Part shown: piece after piece, positions 3,759-33,485 of the stretch | How positions within the stretch are numbered: position 1 is the first letter of the stretch | Layout: every line of letters begins with the position of its first letter | Assembly (NCBI GenBank): GCA_027859235.1 | Contig: JAQIBE010000060.1 | Coordinates: 1 to 33,485, forward strand | From: Desulfobulbaceae bacterium | GTDB taxonomy: Bacteria > Desulfobacterota > Desulfobulbia > Desulfobulbales > SURF-16 | Length of the DNA stretch: 33,485 nucleotides | Reading direction: 5' to 3' | The notes under the pieces: generated by a model | What the model was told of the DNA's origin: nothing | Database searches by the model: none | Seen by the model: only the letters and a program-made list of their open reading frames with translations | Program-made: the position numbers and the translations under genes

Positions 3759-3803
3759 GATGAGGACTCCTGTTGAAGGTTGCTGTTGCAGGCCTTCTAC
3801 GAC

Positions 3804-3962
3804 TTAGTTCGTGGCGTCTTTGACCGTATCCGTTGTTTTCTCCACGGCATGATCGATCTTTTCCCCGGTCTTTTCAGCGGGCCCGTTGTTATCGCAAGCG
3901 GCGAACATCATGGTAAAACTGAGAGCAAGGACAACGGTGAGTAGCGCAATGAATGATTTCAT
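3804..3962 (-). CDS. Entericidin-like small lipoprotein, copy 1
   Basis: A 52-residue lipoprotein: signal peptide MKSFIALLTVVLALSFTMMF, lipobox FAAC, then a short charged tail (KTGEKIDHAVEKTTDTVKDATN) predicted to be a single amphipathic helix. The start was chosen at 3962, not at the upstream in-frame ATG, because AAGGA lies about 7 nt before it and the signal peptide then begins correctly. The residue after the lipid-bearing Cys is Asp, which in Enterobacteria favours inner-membrane retention; whether the rule holds here is unknown. The tail resembles entericidin and other stress-induced envelope peptides. It is nearly identical to the gene at 4144-4302 and lies on the same 340-bp duplicated unit. 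Confidence 0.75.
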   Translation of the reverse strand: MKSFIALLTVVLALSFTMMFAACDNNGPAEKTGEKIDHAVEKTTDTVKDATN

Positions 3963-3996
3963 AATTTTTCCTTTATTTTCTGAAGTTGATTTATCT

Positions 3997-4039
3997 GTAC
4001 AAAACTGTACCGATCTTATTTCAGGTCTGCAAGACCTGG
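3997..4039 (-). promoter_or_regulatory. Palindromes upstream of lipoprotein copy 1
   Basis: Two inverted repeats lie 35-77 bp before the start: GTACA-N4-TGTAC (3997-4010) and CAGGTCT-GCA-AGACCTG (4022-4038). Both recur at the same place in copy 2. They could be operators or leader-RNA hairpins. Confidence 0.4.
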
Positions 4040-4143
4040 TTGCCCTCGCCTGTCCCAACATCAGGATGTTCCGATTTGTTTGACTAACGCGGGCTTTTCT
4101 CTTTCAAGGGAACTCGAGGAAACGGGTACTGAGTTTCTACGAC

Positions 4144-4302
4144 TTAGTTCGTGGCGTCTTTGACCGTATCCGTTGTTTTCTCCACGGCATGATCGATATT
4201 TTCCCCGGTCTTTTCAGCCGGCCCTTTGTTATCGCAAGCGGCGAACATCATGGTAAAACTGAGAGCAAGGACAACGGTGAGCAGCGCAATGAATGATTTC
4301 AT
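4144..4302 (-). CDS. Entericidin-like small lipoprotein, copy 2
   Basis: The second copy of the 52-residue lipoprotein. It differs from copy 1 by only two residues (CDNK for CDNN, GEN for GEK), while the surrounding DNA carries about a dozen substitutions over 340 bp. Signal peptide, FAAC lipobox and AAGGA ribosome site are all intact, so both copies look functional. Gene dosage or slightly different regulation are the simplest reasons to keep two copies. The upstream palindromes are more perfect in this copy than in copy 1. Confidence 0.75.
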   Translation of the reverse strand: MKSFIALLTVVLALSFTMMFAACDNKGPAEKTGENIDHAVEKTTDTVKDATN

Positions 4303-4336
4303 AATTTTTCCTTTATTTTCTGAAGTTGATTTATTT

Positions 4337-4379
4337 GTACAAAATTGTACCGATATTACTCCAGGTCTGCAAGACCTGG
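4337..4379 (-). promoter_or_regulatory. Palindromes upstream of lipoprotein copy 2
   Basis: The perfect palindrome GTACAAAATTGTAC (4337-4350) is followed by CCAGGTCT-GCA-AGACCTGG (4361-4379). Each is longer than its counterpart in copy 1 because of single-base differences between the copies. Confidence 0.4.
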
Positions 4380-4450
4380 TTGCCCTCGTCTGTCCCAACA
4401 TCAGGATGTTCCGATTTGTTTGACTAACGCGGGCTTTTCTTTTTCAAGGG

Positions 4451-7573: not shown

Positions 7574-8329
7574 TCAGACAAGCTCACCACTCCGCGTGGG
7601 AATCCAGCATTCTTCCCATTGATTGAGCTGGATTCGTAACCAGTAACCGCGTTTTTCCCTAACCTGAAATTCTGTCCCCACAGCAAGAGGCTCCTGAAAG
7701 CTTGGTGCAAAGCTCCGCCCGTTGCCCTGGCGTCCCATGGTGTCGCTCAGGGTAATAACGCCTTCCTTGGCTGTCGGCTGGAGAAATTCCAGACCAATGG
7801 GGGTTGAGCTGGCCAGGGTGAGGCAGAGGAAACAGAGGGGGATGCCAAGGGGCATGATCTCTTTCTTTGCATAGCGCATGGCTGCTGTTATCCAGAAAAA
7901 CCCATAACAGGCGAGAAAGATGTATTGAATGTTGGCGGTGAAAGACACGGGGAGCCACAGAACCCCTTCCGGGTCAGGAAGACTGCTGAGGTGTAATTCT
8001 TCCCGAACCAGTTCCAGGTTATGCTTGAGGTTCTGGTCGGTGGGGATGCTCTTGAGGGCGCGTTTATAATAGACCAGGGCCATGGGTTTATTATTCATCT
8101 GGTAATAGGTGTTGCCGATATTATAGGCCAGCCGTCCTGCAGGTTGATCCCTGTATAACTGCTCATAGCGCAGCAGGGCCTTGTCTAAAAGGACAAGGGC
8201 TTCATCCTGGTTGTCGGTGTCCACACCCTGGCTGAACAACTTGTTGGCTTCATCCAGGATCGGCTCCTGGCAGAATCCTGCAGTGGGGAGAAAGAGGAGG
8301 AAGAGGGTGATGATGATGGTTATTTTCAT
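7574..8329 (-). CDS. batE: BatE-like TPR and SH3 protein
   Basis: A 251-residue protein with a signal peptide (MKITIIITLFLLFLPTAGFC). A TPR-like region near residues 40-115 contains the canonical AYNIGNTYYQMNNKPMALVY repeat, then come two membrane segments near 130-180. A C-terminal SH3-like domain (TLSDTMGRQGNGRSFAP and onwards) resembles bacterial SH3 modules. This is the build of BatE, the last protein of the Bacteroides aerotolerance operon. Its start codon overlaps the batD stop by one base (TAATG), implying translational coupling. The exact biochemical role of Bat proteins is unsettled; they probably form an envelope complex. No partner genes follow it. Confidence 0.78.
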   Translation of the reverse strand: MKITIIITLFLLFLPTAGFCQEPILDEANKLFSQGVDTDNQDEALVLLDKALLRYEQLYRDQPAGRLAYNIGNTYYQMNNKPMALVYYKRALKSIPTDQNLKHNLELVREELHLSSLPDPEGVLWLPVSFTANIQYIFLACYGFFWITAAMRYAKKEIMPLGIPLCFLCLTLASSTPIGLEFLQPTAKEGVITLSDTMGRQGNGRSFAPSFQEPLAVGTEFQVREKRGYWLRIQLNQWEECWIPTRSGELV

Positions 8330-22561: not shown

Positions 22562-23122
22562 ATGAATATCCTCCTCCACGCCTGTTGCGGTCCCTGCTCT
22601 GTTTATCCCATAGCAGAGTTGCAGAAACAGGGGCACCAGCTCACGGGCTATTTCTACAATCCCAATATCCATCCCTTTCGTGAATTCAAAAAACGTTTGG
22701 CATCCATGCGGTTATGCAGCGCGGCAACAGGTGTTCAGACTGAGTATGCCGCGGAGTATGGTCTCACTGAATATTTACGCAAGGTTGTCTTCTATGAGGA
22801 GGGTCGTTGCGGGATTTGTTACCTGATGCGGCTTGAAGAGGTGGCCAGAAAAACAAAGGAACTTGGTTTGCAAGGGTTTACGACCACCCTGCTGTACAGT
22901 CGCTATCAGAATCATGGGCTTATCGCCGCCATTGGTGAGAACATGGCGGCGAAGTATAACGTAGAATTTTTATATCAGGATTTTCGCGAAGGGTGGCAAT
23001 GGGGGATTGATCAGTCCATAGCGCTGGATCTGTATCGGCAGCCCTATTGCGGCTGTATCTATAGTGAACAGGAACGGTATGATAAAAAGATGCACAAGAA
23101 AAAACCGGAGATTTCAGGATGA
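22562..23122 (+). CDS. queH: Epoxyqueuosine reductase QueH (DUF208)
   Basis: A 186-residue protein with the DUF208/QueH signature: LLHACCGPCSVYP (C8, C9, C12), GRCGICYLMRLEE (C83, C86) and PYCGC (C163, C165). QueH reduces epoxyqueuosine to queuosine at the wobble position (34) of GUN-anticodon tRNAs and replaces the unrelated QueG. In the family, the two N-terminal Cys and the CxxC ligate a 4Fe-4S cluster and the late CxC pair is redox-active. It overlaps mnmH by 4 bp (ATGA) and shares its wobble-base target. The bases before the ATG form a G-poor leader with no Shine-Dalgarno. Confidence 0.92.
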   Translation: MNILLHACCGPCSVYPIAELQKQGHQLTGYFYNPNIHPFREFKKRLASMRLCSAATGVQTEYAAEYGLTEYLRKVVFYEEGRCGICYLMRLEEVARKTKELGLQGFTTTLLYSRYQNHGLIAAIGENMAAKYNVEFLYQDFREGWQWGIDQSIALDLYRQPYCGCIYSEQERYDKKMHKKKPEISG

Positions 23123-24141
23123 CCCTGGTGAAGGTAAAAGATGTTCTGGCAGACCCTGAACGGATTGTAGTGGATTTACGCACTCCGGGTGAATATGCAC
23201 AGGGACATATCCCTGGCAGCGTCAATATCCCTCTGTTCACCGATGAAGAGCGGGCAAAGGTCGGAACACTCTATAAGCAGGCAGGTAAGGAGATTGCCTT
23301 TCAGCATGGGTTAAAATTTACCGGTCCCCGCCTTGCTGAAATGGTGAAGCGGGTCCGTAATCTTGCCAAGGGCAGACATCTTGTCTTTTATTGCTGGCGT
23401 GGAGGCATGCGCAGTGAGAGCGTCTGCTGGCTGATGCGTCTTGGCGGCATGAATGTGAGCCGAATTAAGGGGGGGTATAAGGCGTATCGCCGGTATATCA
23501 GGGCCTCCTTTGCTGAGCCGGCCAATATGGTTATTCTCGGGGGGTATACGGGAGCCGGCAAAACCGACGTGTTGCTTGAATTGGCCCGCCAAGATGTGCA
23601 GATTGTTGATCTTGAGGGTGTTGCAAATCATAAGGGCTCGGTGTTTGGTCATATTAATGAAGGGTTACAACCCACCAGTGAGCAGTATGAGAACAATCTG
23701 TTTGAGGTGTGGCAACTAATTGATAAGAAACGTGTGGTGGTGGTGGAGAATGAGTCTGCTTCGGTTGGTAGTGTGTCGGTGCCTGAGCCGTTCTATCGCC
23801 AGATGAGAAAGGCGCCGGTGGTTTCCATTGCAATTCCCCTCAAGAGGCGGGTACAGCGCTTGGTGGCTGAGTATGGGGTGGATGACACGCAGCAGCTTCT
23901 TGAAGCAGTGCAGCGTATTGCCAGGAAACTTGGGGGTAAGAATAAGCAAAAGGTGGAGAACTATATCTCTAAACATCAATTTGCTGAGGCGTGTGAACTT
24001 CTGTTGGAATACTATGATAAGTATTATGAGCGGGGGATGCAGGCCCGCGATATTGAGACGTATCAGTTTATTGAGCTTGAAGGTGTTGATGTGGTCGCGG
24101 ATACGGGAAAGGTGAAAGCGCTGATTCTTGAACACTATTGA
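23119..24141 (+). CDS. mnmH: tRNA 2-selenouridine synthase MnmH/SelU
   Basis: A 340-residue two-domain protein. The rhodanese domain (1-125) has DLRTPGEYAQGHIPGSVNIP, and its active Cys is C92 in FYCWRGGMRS. A P-loop domain follows with Walker A GGYTGAGKT (141-149), then NHKGSVFG. MnmH converts 2-thiouridine at tRNA position 34 to 2-selenouridine, via a geranylated intermediate, using selenophosphate. So the organism very likely makes selenophosphate (selD), not in this window. It starts inside the queH stop (ATGA), so the two are translationally coupled. It is a direct sign of selenium use, and relevant to the UGA gene at 33258. Confidence 0.95.
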   Translation: MTLVKVKDVLADPERIVVDLRTPGEYAQGHIPGSVNIPLFTDEERAKVGTLYKQAGKEIAFQHGLKFTGPRLAEMVKRVRNLAKGRHLVFYCWRGGMRSESVCWLMRLGGMNVSRIKGGYKAYRRYIRASFAEPANMVILGGYTGAGKTDVLLELARQDVQIVDLEGVANHKGSVFGHINEGLQPTSEQYENNLFEVWQLIDKKRVVVVENESASVGSVSVPEPFYRQMRKAPVVSIAIPLKRRVQRLVAEYGVDDTQQLLEAVQRIARKLGGKNKQKVENYISKHQFAEACELLLEYYDKYYERGMQARDIETYQFIELEGVDVVADTGKVKALILEHY

Positions 24142-33100: not shown

Positions 33101-33229
33101 CTCGCCTTTGGCATCCTCTTCGGGACGGTGATTGCCCTGGTACTGTTGCCGGTCTTGTATCTTATCTTTGAGGATATAAAGGCGCTGTGTATTGAGGTGA
33201 TTGGTGGGCTCTTTGGCTGGGAAATGTGA
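30107..33229 (+). CDS. RND efflux transporter (AcrB/HAE1 family)
   Basis: A 1040-residue inner-membrane pump with two repeated halves. TM1 is NLLMLFFIVGGLVVSL. TM4 carries the proton-relay pair VDDAI (in ALGVVVDDAIVVGENI), and the second half ends with LAGVVVNDSLLLIDFI. Two large periplasmic porter domains separate TM1-2 and TM7-8. It exports hydrophobic or toxic compounds using the proton gradient; the cognate OMF and MFP are encoded just upstream. The substrate is not evident. It is convergent with the UGA gene that follows. Confidence 0.95.
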   Translation: MKAAIRWMAENHVAANLLMLFFIVGGLVVSLQIKQEVFPDIALDYIEIQVAYPGAGPEEVEEGIILQIEENITGIEGIKEVRSTASEGVASVIVELYPGEDQDVILQEIKSEVDRIVTFPGEAEKPVVSKIIRRREVLTLAVYGDVSERSLREIGDDVRDELLTLPNITQAELGGIRPYEISIEIDEDSLQRYNLTLAQVALRIRQASLDLPGGTIKTRSGEILVRTKERKYSGAEYARISILTEPDGREVTVADLGVVHDSFAETDETSYFDGKPAVMIEIYRIGNQTPKDISQTVYQYVAEKSGNLPGTVSLAVWKDRSEALQSRMSLLTVNGVLGLCLVLVVLGLFLEFRLAMWVMMGIPISFLGAFLFMPATSVSLNMISLFAFIMALGVVVDDAIVVGENIHSHRRMGKSPLNAAVDGTYEVAVPVVFAILTSITAFIPLLYVTGHIGKFVDTIPRVVILILVVSLVECLFVLPAHLGHQKYRRPPTFIVFRKLGEGRQLFGHFLSKWINGPYRWFLGKCLQERYITIGIAIALLIITVGMVKGRVVKFDFMPKVESDTIKVKLEMPPGTPISKTRAIQEMIEEKGRATIAHFDSKLLQETSVLRHYYSTVGSGGSHLASMSLFLIPSEEREIGSSEVSEFWRNEVGEVPGVESLAFENNMVHMGANIDIRLSHEDYDVLELAAARVRLALGEYPGVGDITNSLSRGKRELKITLNPQGRTLGITEEELGRQLRSAFYGVEALRLQRGRDEVKVMVRYPEEDRQFLWNLENMRIRTPSGGEIPLMQAASVVESKGFSQINRADRKRVTNLTGSVNKKVANSAAILEEVEKTVLAQLKSDYPGLSYDLEGESKESKDSQMSMLMGLGMAMLVIYGLLAIPLRSYAQPLLIMVAIPFGIVGAIWGHLLTGYDMAIMSMFGMVALAGVVVNDSLLLIDFINQKRKEGLAVKEAIVEGAIRRFRPILLTSLTTFFGLGPIILETSTQAQFLIPMAISLAFGILFGTVIALVLLPVLYLIFEDIKALCIEVIGGLFGWEM

Positions 33230-33257: not shown

Positions 33258-33470
33258 CTATGACTTTTCGGCGACAATCACCACTCCGGCAGGGGTGGTG
33301 ACCCGGCTGACCATCCTGCCATCGGCAAAAATAATAACCCGGTCCATTTTTTCCGCCACCGGTTCATCGCAGATAAACTGAATCTGCCCGCCGGTGGCTA
33401 AGTTTTTGAGACGTGCCCGCACGTCTTTGAACCCTTTTCAGCAGTCGCTGCGGTAATCCTGTTGTTCCAT
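33258..33470 (-). CDS. Candidate small selenoprotein with in-frame UGA (Sec11)
   Basis: On the minus strand, ATG at 33470 is preceded by AAAGGGA. The frame reads MEQQDYRSDC, then UGA (33440-33438), then runs 59 more codons to a TAG at 33258: KGFKDVRARLKNLATGG, IQFICDEPVAEKMDRVII, FADGRMVSRVTTPAG, VVIVAEKS. The product would be 70 residues with a Cys-Sec pair at 10-11 and a further Cys at 34. A SECIS-like hairpin starts 11 nt after the UGA. MnmH, 9 kb away, shows selenophosphate use. No known family is recognised. Alternatives are a nonsense pseudogene, or a shorter protein from GTG at 33422 (AAAGGG lies ahead). If Sec is inserted, a redox role is the natural guess. Confidence 0.65.
33409..33426 (-). 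promoter_or_regulatory. SECIS-like hairpin downstream of UGA
   Basis: In the message, AGACGTGCGGGCACGTCT folds as a 7-bp stem with a CGGG loop (a G among the first two loop bases), 11 nt past the UGA. This fits the published bacterial bSECIS model as I recall it: a short stem, a small loop with an early G, and a 16-37 nt distance from UGA to loop. It is also coding DNA (DVRARL). Confidence 0.55.
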
Positions 33471-33485
33471 GGATGTCCCTTTTTT

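Follow-up and report, generated by a model that had tools for sequence, protein, structure and literature searches.

Does an in-frame TGA codon in a short reading frame of a draft bacterial genome encode selenocysteine (Sec), and, if so, what might the product do? The window analysed here comprises all 33485 bases of contig C93, part of a draft genome of 2.85 Mb. A sequence-only reading of it had described, at one end of the minus strand, a well-placed ATG, a UGA at codon 11 directly after a Cys, and 59 further codons to a TAG. Reading the codons directly gave the same picture: the start ATG lies at 33470-33468, TGC TGA at 33443-33438 and the stop TAG at 33260-33258. With TGA taken as Sec, the product is MEQQDYRSDCUKGFKDVRARLKNLATGGQIQFICDEPVAEKMDRVIIFADGRMVSRVTTPAGVVIVAEKS. 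Because the window is an entire contig, its sequence ends 15 nt 5' of the ATG and lacks the region further upstream. The features of the locus are as follows.

33258..33470, minus strand: 70-aa selenoprotein ORF (predicted), from codons read directly and from relatives
33476..33481, minus strand: Shine-Dalgarno-like AAGGGA, 5 nt before the ATG, read directly
33441..33443, minus strand: Cys10 codon TGC, the partner residue preceding Sec; Cys in 91/97 sites
33438..33440, minus strand: Sec11 codon TGA; TGA in 92/97 distinct sites, Cys in none
33410..33425, minus strand: bacterial SECIS hairpin GACGUG-CGGG-CACGUC with a 6-bp stem, from comparison and a published model
33416..33419, minus strand: apical loop CGGG; G at loop position 1 or 2 in 92/92 sites

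A gene for an RND transporter converges with the ORF and ends at 33229. Elsewhere in the window, two 300-nt direct repeats at 3795-4434 (97% identical, 340 nt apart), each with an 85-aa lipoprotein-like ORF, are a recent tandem duplication. At 22562-24141, queH overlaps an mnmH-like rhodanese gene by 4 nt; the QueH and rhodanese domains were assigned by Pfam. An Rfam scan of the window gave no match.

The TGA codon among relatives

Peptides from the window itself, scanned against 84,980 species genomes, yielded nine relatives, 48-60% identical, from metagenome-assembled genomes of Desulfocapsa and Desulfobulbaceae and from one genome labelled Proteobacteria. All nine carried TGA at the same codon. 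A profile of these first relatives gave 105 matches in 82 of the 258 genomes of the order, 97 of them with TGA. A wider profile matched 26 of 395 genomes across the phylum; TGA was present in 24, the two weakest matches being those without it. These two were left out as members, one of them (L116) being an ABC-type ATPase as judged from its sequence. A search of a further class within the phylum matched 18 of 56 genomes, and TGA was present in 18/18. One member lies in a single-contig genome (G071, 1945407-1945616). No relative was found among plasmids, phages or viral contigs.

In 97 distinct sites examined by codon, codon 11 is TGA 92 times, TTA three times, CTG once and TAA once; TGC and TGT do not occur. 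No form with Cys at the Sec codon was found in roughly 680 genomes of the one phylum; beyond the phylum, the search for such forms consisted of the single scan with the window's own peptides. The residue directly before codon 11 is Cys in 91/97 sites, and the residues following Sec conform to U-[KWRAS]-[GA]. Cys34 is retained in 71%.

The best-conserved stretch of the protein precedes the TGA (D in 97/97, Y in 95/97 and R in 95/97 sites), R7 is encoded by all six Arg codons among the relatives, and an in-frame ATG is found upstream of the TGA in 90/97 sites. The homologs thus do not start at the downstream GTG. Several relatives deviate: L067 has TAA at the Sec codon and an intact stem, L057 has an extra TAA, and L077 has Ala before Sec. 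These anomalies may reflect recent decay or assembly errors. Two very distant relatives (L112 and L113) read DSR..CU, carry an insertion of two residues, and retain the TGA and a hairpin.

A hairpin after the UGA and the machinery to read it

The palindrome of 18 nt said to begin 11 nt past the UGA was found as AGACGTGCGGGCACGTCT at 33426-33409 (minus strand). The hairpin within it starts 12 nt past the UGA and places its apical loop 18 nt after that codon. The calculated energies were -11.0 kcal/mol (45 nt) and -12.5 kcal/mol (51 nt), and those of the relatives' hairpins were -7.5 kcal/mol or lower. Compared with shuffled sequences, the hairpin of the window was thermodynamically unremarkable (z -0.87). 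A lone sequence thus proves little, and single-sequence folding was not counted as evidence.

Comparison of the relatives was far more informative. All six stem pairs were formed in 86/92 sites, against 2.6 expected (maximum 10) from 1000 synonymous recodings, in which the proteins were held fixed and the codons redrawn from the family's usage. Among 34 distinct sequences, 99.5% of cells were paired, double changes were seen in five of the six pairs, and the observed covariation was matched by 0/500 shuffles. Residue 19 is Ala, Leu or Arg across the stem variants GACGUG-CGGG-CACGUC, GACGUA-AGGU-UACGUC and GACGUC-AGGC-GACGUC; the stem partners change along with it, and pairing is kept. Selection acts on this hairpin at the level of RNA. 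The hairpin also satisfies the published bSECIS model (PMC13188914). The SECIS-like character that had been ascribed to it from the sequence is thereby supported by both covariation and model.

The genes selA, selB, selC (tRNA-Sec) and selD, which the sequence-only reading had suggested looking for, were all found in the genome of the window; its selD has an in-frame TGA of its own. Since selA is present in 216 of the 258 genomes of the order, its co-occurrence with the family carries no information. Ten genomes bearing the family had no selA match. In five of them tRNA-Sec scored above the gathering score; the other five are drafts of 72-88% completeness, four of which had selB above the cut-off. 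G115, a complete genome of two contigs, has tRNA-Sec, selB and two genes of the family, and no selA match.

The only homologs with another sense codon at the Sec position form one small clade, with Leu at codon 11 in four of the 97 sites. This clade has lost both Cys10 and the stem and serves as a natural control. Its members nest beside a Sec form (L078), with which they share an upstream tatC, in a tree built from few columns in which only some forks are supported. The Leu paralogs thus appear to derive from a Sec form. In a further member of the clade (L063:1920-2141), TGA follows Thr and the SECIS stem is absent; this could reflect gene decay, an error in the sequence, or Sec being read without this hairpin.

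The sequence-only reading had regarded a decayed gene as the main alternative. By this account, the gene has decayed or ends prematurely, or starts at the downstream GTG, and the UGA is an ordinary stop. The in-frame TGA fits such a history, as do the few relatives that look damaged (TAA in L067 and L057). However, TGA occurs phylum-wide at one codon with conserved protein on both sides, the stem covaries, and Sec machinery is present. Decay therefore has a negligible probability, and we take it to be ruled out by the phylum-wide conservation of protein and stem. Conservation of TGA, flanking protein and stem among the relatives bears out the proposal of an undescribed small selenoprotein with a Cys-Sec pair. 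The predicted insertion of Sec is strongly supported computationally by the insertion signal, the conservation and the machinery, and the gene is almost certainly that of a real selenoprotein.

Fold, gene neighbourhood and possible function

Pfam and NCBIfam scans with the protein and with the family gave no credible match. A profile search against PDB sequences returned nothing but a designed protein at E 0.47. An AlphaFold2 model, computed from an alignment of ten sequences with Cys substituted for Sec, had a pLDDT of 81, a pTM of 0.67 and the order beta-alpha-beta-alpha-beta-beta. Its top structural matches were YeeD/TsuB (Z 9.8), TusA (Z 8.2) and the SirA-like DSY4693 (Z 8.0). One unrelated methyltransferase domain also reached Z 8.2, so the fold match on its own is moderate.

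The motif D-x-R-[GN]-x-x-U of the family corresponds to D-x-R-G-x-x-C of TusA with equal spacing. This equal, ungapped spacing would align Sec, at the N-terminal end of helix 1, with the catalytic Cys of TusA. The CPxP active-site motif of TusA/SirA is absent, the Pro after the TusA Cys being replaced by Lys, Trp, Arg or other residues. The Pfam TusA model (PF01206) gave a best E of 0.1, under its curated cut-off. Comparison with TusA by hhalign gave a probability of 0.7% with 29 rows and of 13% (P 0.002, collinear) with 98 rows. By sequence, kinship with TusA is therefore suggestive but not significant, and we call the family TusA-like in fold and keep it out of PF01206. We consider a TusA-like fold very probable.

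The gene neighbours, named by Pfam except for the LysR-type regulator, which was named from reading its sequence, vary widely, and so no partner is fixed. A CxxCxxCC (YkgJ-like) protein is encoded upstream in the Desulfocapsa group; other neighbours are TatC in family f2, CreA in g30, polyphosphate kinase in g23 and a LysR-type regulator in f63. A fixed operon partner was sought among the relatives' loci, and none was found. In three genomes of genus g26, selB lies directly upstream of the family gene (L170, at 7703-7918; L177; L178) on the same strand, about 20-30 nt from the match, which may be a functional link to selenium. In a Desulfocapsa-group genome, L181 is followed by an unknown gene of 213-216 aa and then by two genes of moeA type, of which one has a PBP-like domain; L184 has the same downstream arrangement, as judged by similar sequence. 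Pfam was run on the neighbourhoods of L177 and L181.

We favour, with a probability of roughly 0.5, a selenoprotein of an undescribed family that has a TusA fold and relays sulfur or selenium as a carrier. SelB and tRNA-Sec would read the UGA at codon 11 as Sec, directed by the hairpin. The product would be a compact 70-aa domain with the TusA/SirA carrier fold, in which Cys10 is a second nucleophile before Sec. The selenol would accept a chalcogen, either persulfide sulfur or selenium, from a donor (for example a cysteine desulfurase or a selenocysteine lyase), and the cargo would then be passed to a partner protein. Cys10 would close a Cys-Sec selenenylsulfide, freeing the cargo or shielding the carrier. 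The relay and its partner proteins are what we infer. Any naming of a donor or acceptor would be guesswork; given the neighbouring selB and moeA genes, selenium delivery and molybdenum-cofactor sulfuration are the natural starting points.

Cys10 is as conserved as Sec (91 and 92 of 97 sites), and both are lost together in the Leu clade, which suggests that the pair acts jointly. This behaviour would suit a redox enzyme with a TusA-like fold, whose Cys-Sec pair cycles between selenenylsulfide and reduced forms while reducing a peroxide or a disulfide. Among the neighbours are several Fe-S, ferredoxin or CxxCxxCC proteins, and a 2026 catalogue describes redox roles as the presumed function of most known selenoproteins (PMC13188914). 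However, the fold is that of sulfur carriers and not of thioredoxin, and the adjacency to selB or moeA in some lineages better fits trafficking of a cofactor or of selenium. We regard a redox enzyme as possible, though less probable than a carrier.

It is improbable that the protein instead binds a metal or metalloid, the vicinal Cys-Sec, often together with Cys34, holding a soft metal or arsenic. The same catalogue places CU motifs in the mercury- or metal-related selenoproteins SaoL, HgcA and MbdU (PMC13188914); Cys34 is frequent, and an RND efflux gene is convergent both in the window and in L118. That neighbour, however, is only convergent and is absent near most relatives, and there is no consistent metal-resistance context.

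Relation to known selenoprotein families

Among known systems, the family stands close to TusA/SirA (PF01206; E. coli TusA 1dcj/3lvj; YeeD/TsuB 8k1r), with which it shares the predicted fold, a length of about 70 aa and the D-x-R-G-x-x-[C/U] spacing before helix 1. It differs from them in having Sec for the catalytic Cys, an extra preceding Cys and no CPxP, and in scoring under the Pfam cut-off. YedF (TIGR03527) also combines a TusA-like domain with a genomic tie to selenium genes; it is described as SirA-like plus DsrE-like and linked with selenium use (PMC5322559, PMC2432076). YedF, however, is a Cys protein with a second domain and selD as neighbour, whereas the new family is a single Sec domain that is adjacent to selB in one genus only. 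The adjacent Cys-Sec pair is common to the CU-motif selenoproteins (SaoL, SaoC, KCU-star/DUF466, MbdU and HgcA), which are different families without a credible NCBIfam match to the new one.

The sequence-only reading recognised no known selenoprotein family, and this still holds: no Pfam or NCBIfam family, and no family listed in the catalogue, covers the protein. The NCBIfam selenoprotein models gave no credible match, and a TusA-like family does not appear in the table of the 2026 catalogue, which covers 119 families of prokaryotic selenoproteins (PMC13188914). GrdA, the selenoprotein A of glycine reductase, is an unrelated protein that was once thought to lack Cys homologs, as the new family appears to; such homologs have since been reported (PMC12013277). 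According to the same source, which describes deep-Sep (2025), Cys homologs now seem to exist for every known selenoprotein, and 22 known and no new selenoprotein genes were called in Desulfolithobacter dissulfuricans GF1 (3,596,428 nt). Families that lack Cys homologs may be removed by the filters of deep-Sep (PMC12013277).

A wider proposal, which we consider somewhat unlikely as a whole, is that sulfate reducers and related bacteria have a TusA-type carrier that is Sec-obligate and forms the first family of selenoproteins to lack Cys homologs. It would handle sulfur or selenium for the synthesis of selenoproteins or the maturation of the molybdenum cofactor, and upon loss of Sec it would be replaced by a form with Leu, not Cys, losing the partner Cys and the SECIS as well.

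Annotation libraries lack a model for the family, which occurs in about a third of the searched genomes of one order, because gene callers take the UGA as the end of the gene and selenoprotein prediction relies on Cys homologs. With a TusA-fold protein in Sec form, the separation of selenium from sulfur during delivery would become open to testing.
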